Source: Kineosporia mesophila
Lineage (GTDB): Bacteria; Actinomycetota; Actinomycetes; Actinomycetales; Kineosporiaceae
DNA: 64,000 bases
NCBI RefSeq assembly: GCF_021129235.1
Contig: NZ_JAJOMA010000007.1
Location: 186,001-250,000, forward strand
Reading direction: 5' to 3'
The position numbers were made by a program, and so were the translations under genes. The stretch's first letter is position 1. Each line of letters starts with the position of its first letter. Under the pieces are notes generated by a model. It was not told the DNA's origin. It was given only the letters and a program-made list of their open reading frames with translations, and did no database searches. Positions 1,353 through 64,000 of the stretch are shown in pieces.

Positions 1353-3149
1353 GTGGCCATAACCGGTAGGCACGTGCGGGCCGACGAGGCCGACCTGGAG
1401 CCGGACCTCGAGGACGCCCCCTCCAACCGCAGCCGCATCATCTGGACCTTCGCCGACCAGGCCCTGTCCAGCCTGGCCAACTTCGCGCTGTCGATCGTGG
1501 TCGCGCGTGAGGTGTCGGAGAACGACTTCGGCTCGTTCAGCCTGATGCTGGTCACCTTCACCTTCCTGATCGGCCTCGGCCGGGCCATGGTCGGTGACCC
1601 CTACGTGGTCCGGTTCACCGACGCCGACCGTCACACGCGCCGCCGGGCGTCCCGTCAGGCCACCGGTGCGGCCGTCAGCTTCGGCGTGATCGCCGGCGTG
1701 GTCTGCGCGGTCGCCTCGATCTTCCTCGACAAGCAGAGTGCCGCCGGCATCCTCGGTCTCGGCATCGCGATGCCCGGCCTGATGCTGCAGGAGACCTGGC
1801 GCAGCACCTTCTTCGCCGAGGGCCGCCCGCGCACGGCCACCATCAACGACGGCGTGCGCACCGTGATCCAGTTCGCCCTGCTCGGTGTGCTGCTCACCTC
1901 CGACAGCCCGTCGGTCTTCCTGATCACCCTCGCCTGGGGCGCGGGTGGCCTGGTCGCCGCACTCATCGGCATCCTGCAGACCCGCGTCGTGCCCGACCCG
2001 TTCGAGGCGCTCGCCTGGTACCGCGAGACCCGCGACATCAACCTCAAGATGGGTGCCGACTTCTCGCTCAACCAGGGCGCCACCACCCTGGTCAGCTACG
2101 TGATCACCGGCATCGTCGGCACCCTGGCCATCGGCGCCATCCGGGCCGCGCAGTCGCTGCTCGGCCCCCTGAACCTGCTGTTCTCCGGTATCTCCTCGTT
2201 CGGCCTGCCGGTCCTCGCCCGCACCGCCCTCACCGGCCGTTCCCTGGTGAAGCAGGCGCTCCTGCTGAGCGCGGGCATCGGTGGCATGGCCAGCGTCTGG
2301 GTGCTCATCCTCCTGGTGGTGCCGACCTCGATCGGCCGCCAGTTCCTGGGTGACAGCTGGGGCAACGCCCGCGACGTGATGCTGCCGATGGGTCTCATCA
2401 CCGTCACGGTCGGGTTCGTGCTGGGCGCCAGCCTCGGTCTGAAGGCCCTGCGCCGCGCCGACCAGATGCTGCGGGTCACCTTCATCCAGGCGCCGCTCAT
2501 GCTCGGCCTGGGCGCCGGCCTGGGTGCGGTCTGGAGCGCTCCCGGTGCGGCCTGGGGCATGGCCATCGCGCAGGTCACCGGCTTCGTGATGTGCTGGTGG
2601 ATCTTCATCCGGGCCGACCGCATGCCCCGCGACTGGGTCGACGAGGAGAACGAGGACGGCCCGAGCGTCGCGCCGGGTGGCGACCAGCCCCACGGCCGCG
2701 ACCACACCCTCCGTCACGGCCCGCACGACCGGCAAGCCTTCTGGGACCAGGACGAGCAGGACCGCTGGACCCGTGAGGAGCCGGAGGGCATCTACGGCGG
2801 CCGGCAGGCCGAGGAACCCTGGGCGCCGGAACATCAGCCGGGCTACCGGCGGAACTGGGCCGACCCCCGCCAGAACCCGGACCGGTCCGGCGATTTCCCG
2901 GCCTCCGAAGAGACCGTGCAGTTCCGCCAGGACTGGCACACCGGCCAGGCCGCGCCGCCCCCGTCCCGCGGCACGTTCGACCCGGCCGAGCCCACGGTGC
3001 CCTTCATCGAGGAACTCCCCCAGGAGTCGCCGCAGCCGGGCCCGGGCTACGACAACCGTTACGCCGACGACCGCTACCCCGAGGAGCAGTCTCCGCGCGG
3101 CGGCCGGAACTCCTGGCCGTTCCCCGATCCGGAGCACCAGGGCCGCTGA
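1353..3149 (+). CDS. Wzx-type polysaccharide flippase-like membrane protein
   Basis: 598 aa from GTG 1353. After a 25-residue polar N-terminus, residues about 28-425 alternate long hydrophobic helices with short charged loops, in the pattern of MOP/MATE-superfamily O-antigen flippases (about 12 helices). The last 170 residues are hydrophilic, rich in D, R, P, Q and W, and probably cytosolic and disordered; such tails are not part of the core family. Likely role: moving undecaprenyl-linked repeat units across the membrane for the polymerase at 3380. It converges on that gene, with two large palindromes between them. Family call is from topology and context; no catalytic motif exists to confirm it. 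Confidence 0.72.
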   Translation: MAITGRHVRADEADLEPDLEDAPSNRSRIIWTFADQALSSLANFALSIVVAREVSENDFGSFSLMLVTFTFLIGLGRAMVGDPYVVRFTDADRHTRRRASRQATGAAVSFGVIAGVVCAVASIFLDKQSAAGILGLGIAMPGLMLQETWRSTFFAEGRPRTATINDGVRTVIQFALLGVLLTSDSPSVFLITLAWGAGGLVAALIGILQTRVVPDPFEALAWYRETRDINLKMGADFSLNQGATTLVSYVITGIVGTLAIGAIRAAQSLLGPLNLLFSGISSFGLPVLARTALTGRSLVKQALLLSAGIGGMASVWVLILLVVPTSIGRQFLGDSWGNARDVMLPMGLITVTVGFVLGASLGLKALRRADQMLRVTFIQAPLMLGLGAGLGAVWSAPGAAWGMAIAQVTGFVMCWWIFIRADRMPRDWVDEENEDGPSVAPGGDQPHGRDHTLRHGPHDRQAFWDQDEQDRWTREEPEGIYGGRQAEEPWAPEHQPGYRRNWADPRQNPDRSGDFPASEETVQFRQDWHTGQAAPPPSRGTFDPAEPTVPFIEELPQESPQPGPGYDNRYADDRYPEEQSPRGGRNSWPFPDPEHQGR

Positions 3150-3204: not shown

Positions 3205-3287
3205 CGTGATCATGCGAAACCTCCCCGGTGTTCTAGAACTCTCGACCGGACAGTTCTAGAACTCTGGGGAGGTTTTGCATGATCACG
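3205..3287. repeat. CGTGATC-ended palindromic element, copy 1
   Basis: An 83-bp imperfect inverted repeat. The outer arms read CGTGATCATGCGAAACCTCC and the complement of GGAGGTTTTGCATGATCACG; the inner arms each contain GTTCTAGAAC, itself a palindrome. A copy of the same length and order lies at 63441-63523, and related elements are at 23421 and 30628. It lies in the convergent gap after the flippase. It could be a bidirectional terminator or a small non-autonomous mobile repeat. Confidence 0.85.
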
Positions 3288-3317: not shown

Positions 3318-3363
3318 AATGAGGGACGCCTGTCAGCTCGCGAGCTGACAGGCGTCCCTCATT
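3318..3363. terminator. Bidirectional terminator palindrome (GGACGCC family)
   Basis: A perfect 46-bp palindrome with 23-bp arms and no spacer, centred on CTCG|CGAG, with AAT/ATT at its ends. It sits between the converging flippase and Wzy-like genes. The stem segment TGAGGGACGCC recurs in the terminators at 11563, 19979 and 27251. Confidence 0.8.
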
Positions 3364-23420: not shown

Positions 23421-23468
23421 TTCGCGATCAGGCAAAATCTCCCCGGGGAAATTTTGCCTGATCACGAA
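23421..23468. repeat. CGTGATC-type palindromic element, copy 2
   Basis: 48-bp near-perfect palindrome: TTCGCGATCAGGCAAAAT, CTCCCCGGGGAA, ATTTTGCCTGATCACGAA, two mismatched positions. It shares the terminal CGTGATCA and the GCAAAA/CTCCCC order with copies at 3205 and 63441 but lacks the inner GTTCTAGAAC arms. It occupies the convergent gap between the small repeat protein and the SDR and may terminate both. Confidence 0.82.
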
Positions 23469-30627: not shown

Positions 30628-30682
30628 CCGTGATCGGGTGACTTCCGTGCGGCCAGGACGCACGGAAGTCACCCGATCACGG
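30628..30682. repeat. CGTGATC-ended palindromic element, copy 3
   Basis: 23-bp perfect arms around a 9-nt loop: CCGTGATCGGGTGACTTCCG plus TGC, then GGCCAGGAC, then the complement. Termini CCGTGATC/GATCACGG match the other family members but the interior is unrelated to the CTCCCC type. Lies 103 bp after the LytR_C gene and could also terminate it. Confidence 0.75.
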
Positions 30683-30722: not shown

Positions 30723-30743
30723 CCTTCTTGTTCGTGATCATGC
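30723..30743. repeat. Solo end of the CGTGATC element family
   Basis: The 21 bases from 30723 (CCTTCTTGTTCGTGATCATG and one more C) are identical to the reverse complement of 63513-63533, the right end and flank of copy 4. No matching second arm is seen beyond it, so this looks like a truncated or degenerate copy. Confidence 0.65.
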
Positions 30744-58011: not shown

Positions 58012-61000
58012 CCGACGACCGGTTCGGGGTGGCGGACATCCGGCACCGGGTTCTGGCGGCCTGGGCGGCCTCACCGACCCGGTTCCGGGAAGACGCCAAT
58101 GCCGAGGAAGAGCTCGTCCTGGGCGGTTACCGGGATCGCCTGGTGATCGAACTGGCCCAGAACGCGGCCGATGCCGCGTCTCGGGGCGAGGTGTCCGGGC
58201 GGTTGCTGCTGCGACTGACCGAGTCTGTCGACGGTACGGGCGGACCGGTGCTGGTCGCGGCCAACACCGGTGCCCCGCTCGACGCCGACGGCGTGCAGGC
58301 ACTGTGCACGCTGCGGGCCTCGGCCAAGCGTGACGGCGGCACGGTCGGCCGGTTCGGCGTCGGTTTCGCCGCCGTGCTGGCGGTGTCCGACGAGCCGGCG
58401 GTGCTGAGCCGCTCCGGCGGAGTTCGGTTCTCGGCTGCGGACACCCGCGAACTGGTGAGCCGCAAGGCTTTCGAAGACGATTCACCGAAGCTGACGGAAG
58501 AGCAGCAGCGCCGCGACGGCAAGGTTCCGGTGCTGCGACTGCCTTTCGAGGCCGAGGGGGTGCCGCCGGAGGGGTACGACACAGCGGTTCTGCTGCCGCT
58601 GTCGGGTCCGGAAGCCACCGCCCGGGTGCGGCAGTTGCTGGCCGAGGTCTCCGACGTGCTCCTGCTGGCCCTGCCCGGGCTGGACGAGATCATCGTCGAG
58701 CAGCCCGGTGAATCACCGCGGGTGCTGCGCGATGTCGCGCACCGCTGGCGGATCCTGCGGCGGGAGGGCGATATTCCGGCGGAGCTGTTGGCCGACCGGC
58801 CCACCGAGGAGCGGGCTCTCACCCGCTGGAGCCTGACCTGGGCGCTGCCGTCCGGCGAGGCCGACCGGCCCCGGCCGGCGGTGCTCAACGCGCCTACGCC
58901 GAGTGACGAATCCCTGCCCTGGCCGGCGGTTCTCGTGGCCACCGTGCCGATGGACGTGACCCGGCGGCACGTGGTGACCGGACCGGTCACCGACCTGATC
59001 GTGGCGAACGCCGCCCGGGCCTACGCCGACCTGCTGGGTGAGGTGGTCGCCGAGGGCGGCGAGGCCTGGCCGCTCGTCGTCACCGGCCTGCCCGCCGGAG
59101 CGGTGGACGGTGCTCTGCGTGAGGCCGTGCTGGCCCTGCTGCCCGGCATCCCGCTGCTGCACTCGGCTGAGGACGCCTCGGTGCTGTTGCGGCCGACGCA
59201 GGCCCTGGCGCTCGCCGGGCCGGTCGGGGCCGACCGTGCGGTGGTGAGTGTTTTTGCTTCCTGGCTGGTCGGTCTCGTGCATGCGCCGCGTCCGTCATGG
59301 CCGGTGCTCGAACATCTGAACGTGCGTCGCCTGTGGCTCTCCGACGCGGTCGAGTCCCTGCCGGCGCTGCCCGACCCGCAGCGCTGGCGTGCGGCCTACG
59401 AGGCGCTGGCCGGGCTGACGATCGATGAAACGGTTCGCGAGGCACTGGCTTTCCTCCCGGTCCCGCTGGCCGACGGCACGGTCGCACGCGGCGCCCGGGG
59501 GTTGCTGCTGGCCTCCCCGGAGACCGATGTCGACGCGGGGGCGCCGATCTCGGTGCCCGAGGCGCTGAGCGTGCTCGGGGCGAAGGTGGTGCATCCCGAC
59601 GCGGTGCATCCCCTGCTCGAACGGCTGGGCGTCACCGTGGCCGGTCCGCGAGCGCTGGTCGAGCTCCCGGTGGTGCGCTCGGCGGTCCGCGAGATTGGCG
59701 ACGAGCCGGGTGCTTTCGCTGATCTTGACCGTTCGCCCGACGAACTGCGCGACGCCGTGCTGGCCCTGGTCGCGGTGGCCGTGGCCGCGGGTGAACTGGG
59801 TCCGGGGGAGTTGCCCTGGCTGGGCGAACTGGAACTGAGCGACGAGGACGGTGAGCCGACCCCGGCGTCCGCCCTGGCCATCGAGGGCAGCCCGGCCGCC
59901 GACTGGTTCCATCCCGACGACGTGGGCATCCTGCCCGAGTGGTGGGCGCAGCGCTGGGGTGAGAGCGCCCTGGTCGCGGTCGGTGTGCTGCGGGGGCCGG
60001 GTGCCTTCCTGGCGTCGGAGGCGTCGCTGGAGCCCGATCTGCTGGGTCTGGACGACGAGGAGGGCACGCCCTCCACCGAGCTCGACGCCTGGGACGACTA
60101 CACCGCCTGGATTCAGGCGGCCCATCCCGAGATGCTGCCTGGCGGGACGATTTCCGAGCTCATCGCGGTGCGCGACCTGGACCTGGTGCGACCCGAGGCG
60201 CTGCCCGACGTGGTAACGGCGATCGCCGCCGACCCGCTGCTGCGGCCCGCGCTGGTGCGCCCGGCGCACGTGGTGTCGGGCGGCCGGGGCTTCGACGTTC
60301 CCTCGTACACCTCCTGGTGGCTGAGATCCGAGCTGACCGACGGCGACGAGGAGGGCGGTGTCCTCGCGGCGCCCGACGCCGAGCCGTCGCTGCGGGCTCT
60401 GCTGGCTCCGGCGCCGGACTGGCTGGCCGGGCTCGATGCCGCCGCAAGCCGCGCGGTCGGAGTGGTCACCGGGGTGGACGACCTGGATGCCCAGGGTCTG
60501 CACGACGTGCTGGACCGGCTGGCCGATCCGGAGGTCGAGCTGACCGCCGCGATGTTGCTGCCGCTGCTCGAGCGCATGGCCGACCTGGCCTCCGGTCCGG
60601 TTGTGGAAGAGACCGCACGTCCCTTCTCCGTGCGGGCCCTCGACCCGGACGACCCGGCCCGCACCGTGGTGGTGCCGGTCGCGGAGGCCGTGATCGTCGA
60701 CTCACCGATGTACCGCCAGCGTCACGACCTCGGGGCGCAGGTGCCGGTGGCGCCCGGCCGGGCCGGTGCGCTGACCGGCCTGCTCGGCGTCTCCCGCGCG
60801 GGGGACCTGGTCTCCGGCGATCTCGACGATGCCGCCGGCACGGAGCAGCCGGTGGGCGAGGCGGTGCGGGCCCTGCTGCCCGATGCCCCGGTCACCTGGT
60901 GCGAGCACGATTCGCTCGTCGTGGATGGTGTCGAGGTGGACTGGTGGGTCGAGGGTGAGGGCACGACGGCGAGACTGCACGCGTCCACCGTCGACGGTCT

Positions 61001-61115
61001 GGCCCGGGCGCTGGCCTGGTCGGGGGAGCGCTGGGACCTGCGCGACCTCCTGGCGGGGGTGCTCGCCGACCCGGATCTGGGCCCGGACGCGCTGGTCGAC
61101 CAGACCTTCGGCTAG
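58008..61115 (+). CDS. Sacsin-like GHKL ATPase
   Basis: 1035 aa from GTG 58008, overlapping DUF3027 (GTGA). The N-terminal 200 residues are an Hsp90-type fold: N-box IELAQNAADAA (E48, N52, D55), G1-like VAANTGAPLDADG and G2 GRFGVGFAAVLAVSDEP. The remaining 800 residues are alpha/beta with no recognised domain. Sacsin-type N-domains hydrolyse ATP and act as chaperones in eukaryotes; bacterial proteins of this type are uncharacterised. Coupled translation with DUF3027 points to a shared function. Confidence 0.87.
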   Translation: MTDDRFGVADIRHRVLAAWAASPTRFREDANAEEELVLGGYRDRLVIELAQNAADAASRGEVSGRLLLRLTESVDGTGGPVLVAANTGAPLDADGVQALCTLRASAKRDGGTVGRFGVGFAAVLAVSDEPAVLSRSGGVRFSAADTRELVSRKAFEDDSPKLTEEQQRRDGKVPVLRLPFEAEGVPPEGYDTAVLLPLSGPEATARVRQLLAEVSDVLLLALPGLDEIIVEQPGESPRVLRDVAHRWRILRREGDIPAELLADRPTEERALTRWSLTWALPSGEADRPRPAVLNAPTPSDESLPWPAVLVATVPMDVTRRHVVTGPVTDLIVANAARAYADLLGEVVAEGGEAWPLVVTGLPAGAVDGALREAVLALLPGIPLLHSAEDASVLLRPTQALALAGPVGADRAVVSVFASWLVGLVHAPRPSWPVLEHLNVRRLWLSDAVESLPALPDPQRWRAAYEALAGLTIDETVREALAFLPVPLADGTVARGARGLLLASPETDVDAGAPISVPEALSVLGAKVVHPDAVHPLLERLGVTVAGPRALVELPVVRSAVREIGDEPGAFADLDRSPDELRDAVLALVAVAVAAGELGPGELPWLGELELSDEDGEPTPASALAIEGSPAADWFHPDDVGILPEWWAQRWGESALVAVGVLRGPGAFLASEASLEPDLLGLDDEEGTPSTELDAWDDYTAWIQAAHPEMLPGGTISELIAVRDLDLVRPEALPDVVTAIAADPLLRPALVRPAHVVSGGRGFDVPSYTSWWLRSELTDGDEEGGVLAAPDAEPSLRALLAPAPDWLAGLDAAASRAVGVVTGVDDLDAQGLHDVLDRLADPEVELTAAMLLPLLERMADLASGPVVEETARPFSVRALDPDDPARTVVVPVAEAVIVDSPMYRQRHDLGAQVPVAPGRAGALTGLLGVSRAGDLVSGDLDDAAGTEQPVGEAVRALLPDAPVTWCEHDSLVVDGVEVDWWVEGEGTTARLHASTVDGLARALAWSGERWDLRDLLAGVLADPDLGPDALVDQTFG

Positions 61116-61127
61116 CGGGTCAGCGGG

Positions 61128-61496
61128 TCAGGGCAGGGTGCCCGGCCCGCCGCCGGGCCGGGGTACGGGCTTGCGCCGCAGCTTGGGCAGCCCGGTGGGT
61201 TCCCCGTTGTTGCGCGGCACGTCGTCGACGTCACCCGTGTAGCCGCTGGAGGGGATGACCTCACCCGGTTTCGGCTTGGGACGGCGCAGGAGCAGGTACG
61301 TGTAGCCCACGAAGCCGAGCGCCACTCCGGCCAGGGCCGTCCACACCCACCAGCCGCGTCCGGTGGACTCCAGCTCGGGGCGCAGGATCAGTCCCAGCAC
61401 GAACAGCAGCGCCCAGATGCCGGTGCCGACTGCCACCGGCAGCCGCTCGCCCGGACCACCCTGGGTGACCTGGTAGGGCACTTCCTGTTCTCCCAC
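61128..61496 (-). CDS. DUF2530 membrane protein
   Basis: 122 aa from GTG 61496 (GTG 61481 after GGGAG is equally possible). Two helices, GTGIWALLFVLGLILRPEL and WWVWTALAGVALGFVGYTYL, with a basic, Gly/Pro-rich cytosolic tail (RRKPVPRPGGG). DUF2530 is a small actinobacterial membrane family of unknown role, commonly near MarR and MFS genes. Converges on the ATPase gene with 12 bp between. Confidence 0.8.
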   Translation of the reverse strand: MGEQEVPYQVTQGGPGERLPVAVGTGIWALLFVLGLILRPELESTGRGWWVWTALAGVALGFVGYTYLLLRRPKPKPGEVIPSSGYTGDVDDVPRNNGEPTGLPKLRRKPVPRPGGGPGTLP

Positions 61497-61616
61497 TCTT
61501 TCGAGGTTACCTGTCCGAACGGGCGGACCTGGGGTTATGTGCCCCACAGCGTGATGATCTCGCGTCCGACGGCCCGAACGGGCGACCGGAAACCACCCCG
61601 AGGGGAGGGGGAATAG

Positions 61617-61629
61617 TTAGCACGGCTAA
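61617..61629. promoter_or_regulatory. Candidate MarR operator
   Basis: TTAGC ACG GCTAA, 5-bp perfect arms, ending nine bases before TAGACT (61639-61644), the -10 of the marR-MFS operon, so it overlaps the -35 region. Position suits autorepression. The arms are short, so the call is moderate. Confidence 0.6.
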
Positions 61630-61650
61630 GCAGTTCGGTAGACTGTGAGC

Positions 61651-62061
61651 GTGCTCGAGGAAACAGACCTGCGCGTGTCCCTGATGAAGGTGACGCGCCG
61701 GTTGCGCGCGGAGAAGTCCGACACCGAACTCACCGACAGTCAGATGTCGGTGCTGGCCGTGCTGGACCGCTCCGGTCCCCTGACTCCCCGGGCCCTGGCC
61801 GATTTCGAGCGGGTGCAGCCGCCCTCGATGACGCGCACGCTCGCGTCCCTGGACGCCCGCGGTCTGGTCGACCGCGAGCCCGACCCGGCCGACGGCCGGC
61901 AGATCATCGTCCGGATCACCCCGTCCGGTGCGGCCGCCGTCACGGCGACCCGTCGTCAGCGTGACGCCTGGCTGGCCCGGCGGCTGGCCGACCTCGACCC
62001 GGAAGAGCGAGCCGTTCTCGCCCGTGCGTCACAGATATTGAGGAGGATCGCCGACTCGTGA
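61651..62061 (+). CDS. MarR-family regulator of MFS gene
   Basis: 136 aa from GTG 61651, with TAGACT ending six bases upstream and no ribosome site; a GTG two codons earlier would lie against the -10 and is rejected. Winged helix: LTDSQMSVLAVLDRSG, TPRALADFERVQPPSMTRTL (recognition helix), wing DREPDPADGRQIIVRITPSG. It probably represses itself and the MFS gene, whose start overlaps its stop (GTGA). Confidence 0.93.
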   Translation: MLEETDLRVSLMKVTRRLRAEKSDTELTDSQMSVLAVLDRSGPLTPRALADFERVQPPSMTRTLASLDARGLVDREPDPADGRQIIVRITPSGAAAVTATRRQRDAWLARRLADLDPEERAVLARASQILRRIADS

Positions 62062-63422
62062 GTCCCATGTTCAGGGCCCTGGGCATCCGTAACTACCGAC
62101 TCTGGGCAACCGGAGCCATCGTGTCGAACACCGGCACCTGGATGCAGCGCGTGGCCCAGGACTGGCTGGTCCTCACCCAGCTCACCGACAACTCCGGCGT
62201 CGCGGTCGGCATCACGACCGCGCTCCAGTTCCTCCCGGTGCTCCTGCTGGCCCCCTGGGCCGGCGCCGTCACCGACCGGTTCGACCGCCGCCGCGTTCTC
62301 ATCTTCACGCAGGTGGCCTTCGCCGTTCTCGGCCTGACCCTCGGTCTGCTCGTCGTCACCGGCCTCGTGCAGCTCTGGATGGTCTACACCCTCGCCTTCG
62401 GCCTCGGTGTCATCGCCGCCGTGGACGGTCCGGCCCGCCAGGCCTTCGTCTCCGAACTGGTGCCGGTCGACTACCTGCCCAACGCCGTCGGCCTGAACTC
62501 CGCCTCGTTCAACGCCGGCCGCCTGATCGGCCCCGGCCTCGCCGGCCTGCTGATCGCCTCGTTCGGCACCGGTCTGGTGTTCCTCATCAACGGTGTCAGC
62601 TTCGTCGCCGTGGTGTTCTCCCTGACCCGGATGAACCGCGCCGAGCTGAGCGCCCAGCAGCGCCCGCCCCGCGGCAACCGCTCGGCCCGCGCCGGCCTGG
62701 TCTACGTGCGCAGCCACCCCGAGATCGGCCTGATCATGGCCATCGTCGGCACGGTCGCGATGCTGGGCCTGAACTCGCAGATCACCATCGCCCTGATGGC
62801 CCGGCTGGTCTTCGACAAGGGCGCCGGTGAGTACGGCATCCTCGGCTCGGTCATGGCCATCGGGTCGCTCGGTGGCGCCCTGCTCGCGGCCCGCCGCGAA
62901 CACCCCACGGTGAAGCTGGTGATCACGGCCGCCGCGGCCTTCGGCGTCACGTCGATCCTGTCGGCGGTGATGCCCACGTACTGGTCGTTCGGCCTGATGC
63001 TGATCCCCGTGGGCCTGTCGGCGCTGACCATGCTCACCGCCGCCAACGCCACCATCCAGCTCTCCACCGAGCCGGCCATGCGAGGACGCGTGATGGCCCT
63101 CTACATGGCGGTGATCATGGGTGGCACGCCGATCGGCTCGCCCATCATCGGGTGGGTCGGCGAGACGTTCGGCCCGCGCTGGACCGTGCTCATCGGCGGT
63201 ATCGGCACCCTGCTCGTCGCCGTCGTGGCCGTGCTCGTGCTGAGCCGTTCGCCGGGCCTGCGAGCGGCGGTGGCCCAGGCCGAGAAGGGCCCGGCCGTCA
63301 CGGTCACGGCCACCACCGAGCGGGCCCGCGCCACCCGCACCCCCGAGGCCGAAACGGTGGCCCGGACCACGGCAGCCCACAAGACGGCAACCTCCGAGGT
63401 GACGGAGAACTCCGTCGCCTGA
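62058..63422 (+). CDS. MFS exporter (DHA3/EntS-like)
   Basis: 454 aa from GTG 62058. Twelve predicted helices. WMQRVAQDWLVLTQLT in helix 1, GAVTDRFDRRRVLIFTQ as the MFS loop 2-3 signature, GPARQAFVSELVPVDYLPNAVGLNS in the loop 4-5 region, and NAGRLIGPGLAGLLIASFG form the pattern of the EntS/bacteriocin-immunity-type efflux group. C-terminal 40 residues are Thr/Ala/Glu-rich and cytosolic. Regulated with the upstream MarR. Confidence 0.92.
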   Translation: MSPMFRALGIRNYRLWATGAIVSNTGTWMQRVAQDWLVLTQLTDNSGVAVGITTALQFLPVLLLAPWAGAVTDRFDRRRVLIFTQVAFAVLGLTLGLLVVTGLVQLWMVYTLAFGLGVIAAVDGPARQAFVSELVPVDYLPNAVGLNSASFNAGRLIGPGLAGLLIASFGTGLVFLINGVSFVAVVFSLTRMNRAELSAQQRPPRGNRSARAGLVYVRSHPEIGLIMAIVGTVAMLGLNSQITIALMARLVFDKGAGEYGILGSVMAIGSLGGALLAARREHPTVKLVITAAAAFGVTSILSAVMPTYWSFGLMLIPVGLSALTMLTAANATIQLSTEPAMRGRVMALYMAVIMGGTPIGSPIIGWVGETFGPRWTVLIGGIGTLLVAVVAVLVLSRSPGLRAAVAQAEKGPAVTVTATTERARATRTPEAETVARTTAAHKTATSEVTENSVA

Positions 63423-63440
63423 CCCCGCCCTCCAACCCTC

Positions 63441-63523
63441 CGTGATCATGCAAAACCTCCCCGGAGTTCTAGAACTTTGGAAGCAGCAGTTCTAGAACTC
63501 CGGGGAGGTTTTGCATGATCACG
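63441..63523. repeat. CGTGATC-ended palindromic element, copy 4 (best copy)
   Basis: Perfect 36-bp inverted repeat around an 11-nt loop: CGTGATCATGCAAAACCTCC then CCGGAGTTCTAGAACT, TTGGAAGCAGC, then the complement. Length (83 bp) and order equal the copy at 3205. It fills the convergent gap between the MFS and CPBP genes. Confidence 0.92.
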
Positions 63524-63534
63524 AACAAGAAGGG

Positions 63535-64000
63535 TCAGGTGCCCAGGAGCTTGTCCAGGACTCCCTGGAACAGCTGGTATCCCACGAAGCTAATGATGTC
63601 GAGGATGGTGTGGGCCACGATCAGGGCCCAGACCCGGCCGCCGCGCCGGTACCACTCGGCGAACACCAGGCCCATGATCGCGTTCCCCACGAACGCCCCG
63701 AAGCCCTGGTACAGGTGGTACGAGCCGCGCAGCAACGCGCTCGCCACGATGATTCCCCGCCAGGTCCAGTTCTGACGGCGCAGCCGGTTCATCAGGTACC
63801 CGACCACGATGATCTCTTCGAGCACCGCGTTCTTGACGGCCTGCAGAATCAGCACCGGGACGGTCCACCAGTACTCGCCCAGCCCGGACGCCACGACCGT
63901 CGTGGTCAGGTTCAGCCGGTTCCCGATGATGTACAGCGCCAGACCGGGCAACCCGATCAGCGCCGCCAGCCCGGCCCCATGAGCCAGATCGCGCCAATAG
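63535..64000 (-). CDS. CPBP-family intramembrane protease (5' end cut by window edge)
   Basis: The reading frame enters from the right edge and ends at 63535. It shows at least three helices and the CPBP motifs: EE in AVLEEIIVVGYL, followed by the second motif around RGSYHLYQGFGAFVGN and the third HTILDII. CAAX-prenyl-protease/Rce1-like proteins cut within or near the membrane; in bacteria many process peptides or act in immunity or signalling. Upstream residues (RDLAHGAGLAALIGLPGLAL) confirm that the start lies outside the window. Confidence 0.88.
   Translation of the reverse strand, partial: YWRDLAHGAGLAALIGLPGLALYIIGNRLNLTTTVVASGLGEYWWTVPVLILQAVKNAVLEEIIVVGYLMNRLRRQNWTWRGIIVASALLRGSYHLYQGFGAFVGNAIMGLVFAEWYRRGGRVWALIVAHTILDIISFVGYQLFQGVLDKLLGT

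Follow-up and report, generated by a model that had tools for sequence, protein, structure and literature searches.

A REPIN-like palindromic repeat family with conserved ends and exchangeable interiors at gene ends of Kineosporia mesophila and a sister species

REPINs have conserved inverted ends that enclose a less conserved spacer of nearly fixed length; they show compensatory changes, and their singlets are remnants (Bertels and Rainey, 2011; PMC3116915). CGTC-tagged REPs are high-copy short palindromes for which no dedicated transposase is known (PMC3733652). In this work, we found a family of palindromes in a window of 64,000 nucleotides (the whole stretch of DNA analyzed) from Kineosporia mesophila and followed it through the draft genome of this strain (G000; 7.78 Mb in 61 contigs, about 70% G+C), the genome of its sister species G005, and those of the congeners G001 to G004. 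The assembly of G005 is also a draft, and in draft assemblies contig breaks may coincide with repeats. The sequence read comprised 1.63 Mb of G000 (about a fifth) and 0.75 Mb of G005 (about a tenth), with genes called by a simple codon-based method. The family probably consists of REPIN-like, non-autonomous mobile palindromes that have come to occupy the positions of terminators; its interchangeable interiors and this apparent takeover are its less usual features.

The features of the window are given below, with fold energies for its four main palindromes; all four form long hairpins upon folding, and shuffled sequences were never as stable.

3205–3287, unstranded: 83-bp element of the GTTCTAGAAC class with a few mismatches between its arms, between convergent genes (-65.1 kcal/mol).
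3318–3363, unstranded: native-type perfect palindrome AATGAGGGACGCCTGTCAGCTCG/CGAGCTGACAGGCGTCCCTCATT, separate from the family and adjoining the element at 3205–3287.
23423–23466, unstranded: 44-bp short-form element (core CGCGATCAGGCAAAATCTCCCCGGGGAAATTTTGCCTGATCACG) with a few mismatches between its arms, between convergent genes (-24.7 kcal/mol).
30629–30681, unstranded: 53-bp palindrome with 23-bp perfect arms, from a second family (TGATCGGGTGACTTCCGTGCG-N7-) and not a member of the main one (-48.2 kcal/mol).
30731–30743, + strand: solo half-site TTCGTGATCATGC lacking a partner arm, adjoining the palindrome at 30629–30681.
63426–63440, unstranded: left outer part of the 63441 element, C/T-rich with the degenerate consensus CCCCCAACCYTYKTT, based on family-wide flank composition and consensus.
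63441–63523, unstranded: 83-bp element of the GTTCTAGAAC class with perfect 36-bp inverted arms and an 11-nt loop, between convergent genes (-71.6 kcal/mol).
63524–63538, unstranded: right outer part of the 63441 element, A/G-rich (AACAAGAAGGG...), likewise based on family-wide flank composition and consensus; its final few bases extend into the end of the gene on the right.

By codon-based gene calls, the stops flanking the three family members lie at 3149/3380, 23391/23513, and 63422/63535. The initial annotation of this DNA had described two 83-bp elements, one of them a perfect 36-bp inverted repeat, and had placed three of four elements in convergent gaps; the elements at 3205–3287 and 63441–63523 agree with the former statement and our own gene calls with the latter. 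Its fourth member, the palindrome at 30628–30682 that was said to keep the termini only, belongs to a separate family. This palindrome sits between two genes on the + strand. Its own family (TGATCGGGTGACTTCCGTGCG-N7-palindrome, TGATCGGGTGACTTCCGTGC) has five forward and five reverse half-sites, or approximately five copies, in G000, and relatives are present in G005 and G003 (loci L178, L187, L185, L188, and L186). The ends of these copies are often CATGATC, CGGTCGG, or GGATCGG in place of CGTGATC. Given this small family and these ends, we rejected the reading of 30629–30681 as a main-family copy with a new interior. Rfam covariance models had no match in the window.

At a threshold of at most three mismatches, the half-site CGTGATCATGCAAAACCTCC occurs 189 times in the forward and 196 times in the reverse orientation in the 7.78 Mb of G000, compared with zero occurrences of its reversed control pattern in the same sequence at the same threshold. 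These counts confirm the interspersed palindrome family that had been proposed. The outcomes that had been named as contrary to it were a copy number expected by chance and copies at a single site by segmental duplication; both were checked, and neither refuted the family. The 11-mer CGTGATCATGC is found 135 times in 1.63 Mb, versus a mean of 0.9 (maximum 13) for permutations of its bases. Three contiguous, unselected stretches of G000 (1.35 Mb in total) contain 54 paired elements, a density of 40 per Mb that extrapolates to about 310 copies in the whole genome. G005 has 128 forward and 132 reverse half-sites and an equal density of paired elements (40 per Mb). Elsewhere, half-sites number one in each orientation in G003 and zero in the three other congeners (G001, G002, and G004) and in order relatives. 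A search of named genomes, among which near relatives of the source may be missing, returned a single chance match, from a Treponema bin, and nothing else. The expansion of the family is specific to the lineage of the two sister species G000 and G005, and its spread seems recent.

Adjacent half-sites are arranged as LR in 56 cases in G000 (versus five RL and one LL) and in 27 cases in G005 (versus two RL, three LL, and one RR). Occurrences are distributed as 149 intergenic and 10 coding. Uptake sequences, such as the Neisseria DUS, are located largely in genes, and the abundance in coding DNA that would mark a DNA uptake sequence is not seen in these counts. Such sites for a sequence-specific DNA protein (for uptake, nucleoid, or segregation), paired only incidentally, could explain why the 11-bp end is nearly invariant and far above chance, and why solo half-sites and tail-to-tail pairs exist. 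However, the intergenic distribution is unlike that of uptake sequences, long shared interiors and outer arms extend past the site, and the family is absent from close congeners, such that we regard this explanation as very unlikely indeed.

The elements are 44–112 bp long, with CGTG/CACG at the two ends and a near-invariant end sequence of CGTGATCA(T/G)GC. The most frequent form measures exactly 83 bp (CGTGATCATGCAAAACCTCCCCGG-N-GTTCTAGAAC, a loop region of 13 nt, and then the reverse), and the second most frequent measures 44 bp (CGTGATCATGC-6 nt-TCCCC/GGGGA-6 nt-GCATGATCACG). Forms of 60–62 bp contain a single GTTCTAGAAC, whereas the 83-bp main unit contains two GTTCTAGAAC palindromes. The outer ~15 nt are degenerate, being C/T-rich on the left and A/G-rich on the right, and background composition is found beyond them. 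Among the 83-bp copies, deviation from the consensus amounts to 3.4% for the outer stem, 6.3% for the GTTCTAGAAC blocks, 40% for the loop, and 40–47% for the outer 15 nt. In contrast to a classical transposon, conservation is lowest at the outermost tips of the element. The interior modules include the short form, GTTCTAGAAC palindromes (one or two), a UUCG module (TCCCCCAGCCTTCGGCCGGGAGGTGCCCCCA, adjoining CGTGATC-type ends in nine of nine sampled copies), and a gene of 1.07 kb carried in the loop. The swapping of interiors suggested by the initial annotation is real in other copies, but its main example (30628–30682) comes from the different family described above.

The gene-bearing element is located at C1:144962–146086 of G000 (L034:4962–6086), where a lone gene encoding an AbiEi_4 domain and a restriction-endonuclease-like C-terminus parts the two halves. 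In G005 (C1:1543645–1544828), the gene-bearing segment is inverted relative to G000, with 92% identity and collinear flanks. Both arms of the G005 element carry the UUCG module; therefore, arms that are 1.1 kb apart have changed together. This DUF559/AbiEi-like gene was considered as a mobiliser and rejected, because a tblastn search found no other relative in the sampled sequence and this is the sole copy bracketed by arms. We keep it only as cargo. We also rejected a "Russian-doll" insertion of elements into the centres of older palindromes, because the flank complementarity of an element's own pair was no higher than that of permuted pairs (P about 0.9).

Other arrangements of half-sites were also observed. 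A tandem array in G005 (C19:106092–106310; L148:6092–6310), located between convergent genes, contains three left half-elements with outer flanks at a period of about 56 bp and closes with a full 60-bp element. Tail-to-tail (inside-out) half-site pairs were found in G000 at C5:51661–51718 (L107:11661–11718) and C10:29841–29898; about 14 bp lie between the half-sites, the arms also match each other, and the pairs recall the two orientations in REP clusters.

G005 is collinear with G000 at 92–96% identity, and G001–G003 are at about 83% in the compared region. Among 32 aligned G000 sites, which include a few chance coding repeats, a paired element is present in both sister species at 20 and in only one of them at 12. 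Where a site is shared, the ends persist and the interior is often different, with both arms compensated. For example, the interior at C1:526729 is AGAGTG in G000 and CAAGGG in the sister, each paired with its own complement. Nine orthologous pairs of 83-bp elements have identities of 96.7% in the arms, 71% in the loops, and 59% in the outer flanks. In 16 short elements, eight of the 20 stem pairs are doubly changed (32 cells versus 10.2 in shuffles, 0/500), and the covariation score is 0.275, compared with 0.101 for shuffled sequences and at most 0.082 when the sequences are slid. Such stem compensation can arise from hairpin selection or from arm-to-arm conversion.

The element at 23423–23466 is absent from the orthologous place in G005, and the site of 3205–3287 there contains two half-arms that lie apart from each other. 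The corresponding site of the outgroup G002 carries a hairpin comparable to that at 3318–3363; therefore, the element at 3205–3287 was added beside a terminator-like hairpin. The solo half-site at 30731–30743 is a probable remnant, and the corresponding intergenic region in G005 holds an element with the UUCG module. For the 63441 element, the G005 counterpart TTCCAACAAGAAGGG could be taken as a pre-insertion empty site. We rejected this interpretation because outer-arm sequence flanks a 3-nt overlap (AAC) on either side, and the counterpart is therefore better read as a deletion footprint. A deletion in the sister was also found at the site of C10:114709, where the ends are fused to CGTGATCACG. 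At G000 C1:532239–532350, about 650 bp of the sister sequence, including most of a small gene, are absent, and the break lies beside an element; the elements may seed deletions of this kind. Separately, repeated motifs of the TTGGATCCA type are located upstream of genes (L041:6789–6960, corresponding to G000 C1:526789–526960, and L041:12726–12794). These motifs occur at orthologous places in several congeners and may be operators for a regulator that these species have in common.

Regarding gene context, 29 of the 76 placed copies are in convergent gaps, versus 11.3 expected by intergenic length, and three are in divergent gaps, versus 23.7 expected. Of 61 copies in tandem context, 46 lie closer to the upstream stop; the median distances are 38 nt to this stop and 139 nt to the next start. 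A strong hairpin is present in 93 of the 112 convergent gaps without an element, whereas another hairpin outside the element was found in just 10 of the 33 gaps with one. Occupied gaps leave little room outside the element (median 24 nt), which weakens this test of hairpin exclusion; the latter count therefore indicates that the element is usually the sole hairpin and gives no reason why. The placement after stop codons and the scarcity of other hairpins fit a terminator-like role for the family, and, judging from sequence, the elements may act in termination. An intrinsic-terminator scan of 60001–64000 made no call. The stem is followed by an A/G-rich 3′ flank with no U-tract, and UUUU is found only inside the stem. 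RNA-level selection through an excess of G-U pairs was considered and rejected, because stem mismatches in tandem context are evenly split between G-U (29) and A-C (28). This split shows no RNA-strand bias and does not favor selection at the RNA level along the transcribed direction. The bidirectional terminator family that had been offered as one of two options is thus favored by placement and by the few other hairpins but not by these RNA-level features.

The single full element in the 8.1 Mb of G003 is located at the 3′ end of the acetate kinase gene ackA (named from its sequence). This site has a hairpin in all six species; the hairpin belongs to the family in G000, G005, and G003 and is unrelated to it in G001, G002, and G004. 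Either the ackA terminator founded the family, or one copy reached G003. It is conceivable, as a tentative scenario, that the ackA 3′ hairpin terminator turned mobile in the ancestor of two of these three species, that it now moves independently of RAYT, and that it has displaced native terminators, swapped modules, and once carried a gene. The same site invites another explanation, in which the elements are bidirectional terminators owned by the host that have one origin (perhaps ackA) and were spread and homogenised by gene conversion with no transposition enzyme. The hairpin at ackA in all six species, the usual lack of another hairpin in occupied convergent gaps, the compensated stem changes, and the orthologous sites that keep the element while interiors and immediate flanks are exchanged are all in line with it. 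Nevertheless, the arm sequence is conserved beyond mere pairing and more than termination needs, U-tract and G-U excess are lacking, some copies lie beside existing hairpins, and one copy was cleanly inserted into a compact gap together with outer sequence. We thus consider host-owned terminators rather doubtful.

This clean insertion, the only such case, is an 84-bp copy at C1:1559782 of G005. The stops at the counterpart overlap or abut in G000 and G002. The copy came with 12–24 nt of outer sequence and is associated with an approximate duplication of 8–9 bp (CTAGCGCGC/TTAACGGGC), the match being imperfect. A duplication of this kind, as well as the inverted-repeat architecture, the lineage-specific burst, the high copy number, and the copy with a gene between its arms, would be expected of MITEs of a DDE-type insertion sequence, in which a transposase encoded elsewhere recognises the ends and produces a target duplication. 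Yet the tips are the least conserved positions, the target duplication is imperfect, and the sequence read (1.63 Mb of G000 and 0.75 Mb of G005) yielded no full-length parent with a transposase between family ends; DDE-type MITEs are therefore quite unlikely. For the other candidate mobilisers, a profile search for Y1_Tnp (PF01797) had zero matches in G000 (97% complete) and G005 (99%), with control genomes being positive, and RAYT/Y1 was rejected on this basis. A transposase beside element clusters was also rejected, because the genes at the inspected clusters resemble host genes by sequence. The mobile palindromic family, the other option of the initial annotation, is consistent with the dispersed copies, the lineage-specific expansion, and the one clean insertion, but no transposase could be tied to it. 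The remaining sequence of the two genomes, outside the fifth and the tenth that were read, may contain a mobiliser gene. Both options have partial support and need not exclude each other.

In our preferred interpretation of a REPIN-like mobile family, the moving unit would be the whole inverted pair, which consists of a degenerate outer arm of ~15 nt, the end CGTGATCA(T/G)GC with its stem, and an interior that is free to vary. A trans-acting enzyme, which is not the usual Y1/RAYT as far as the profile search shows, would recognise the ends, probably in the form of a folded hairpin, and would copy the unit to the 3′ ends of genes. A hairpin is the normal feature of a gene end in this genus, so an inserted copy could assume the role of the native hairpin and the old hairpin could decay, such that the element would become a local bidirectional terminator or 3′-end stabiliser. 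Complementarity of the arms may be kept by hairpin selection, arm-to-arm conversion, or both. If true, a mobile repeat would now serve the 3′ ends of hundreds of genes in this lineage, and sister species that are 92–96% identical would differ in the means by which transcripts end. The family provides a tractable system for studying how RAYT-less REP-like palindromes move and whether mobile hairpins take over termination, and the orthologous pairs with different interiors are natural replacements that are ready for testing.

Among the described systems, REPINs (PMC3116915) share with this family the inverted conserved ends, a variable interior of near-constant length, extragenic location, hundreds of copies, compensatory stem changes, remnant singlets, and some tandem clusters. 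In the family studied here, the inverted pair forms a hairpin, doublets outnumber singlets, the ends are more conserved than the interior with its compensatory changes, and the copies are extragenic, dispersed, and numerous. The differences are that the RAYT/Y1 transposase with adjoining ends expected of REPINs was not detected in G000 or G005, that the foot is CGTG/CACG with a C/T-rich outer flank in place of the expected GTAG tag, and that the interiors are discrete exchangeable modules, one with a gene, in a main unit of 83 bp with two GTTCTAGAAC palindromes. We file the family as REPIN-like rather than REPIN because the defining transposase was not found in either sister genome with controls positive. 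MITEs and other small mobile sequences (PMC2229807) are similarly non-autonomous inverted repeats in intergenic DNA, whereas this family has unconserved tips, no clear fixed target duplication, and no parent in the sampled sequence. Mobile hairpins of organelles (PMC2800124 for sponge; PMC4478555 for yeast mitochondria) are likewise reported as short intergenic hairpin elements with no known enzyme; compared with these double-hairpin elements, the family is bacterial-chromosomal, has much longer conserved arms, and is located after stop codons. CGTC REPs (PMC3733652) are likewise high-copy short palindromic repeats with no known dedicated transposase, so the lack of a transposase is not new in itself. 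However, those repeats are 20–40 bp with a CGTC tag at one end, whereas the family described here extends over 44–112 bp, carries CGTG...CACG at both ends, and has a paired-end architecture with swapped interiors.
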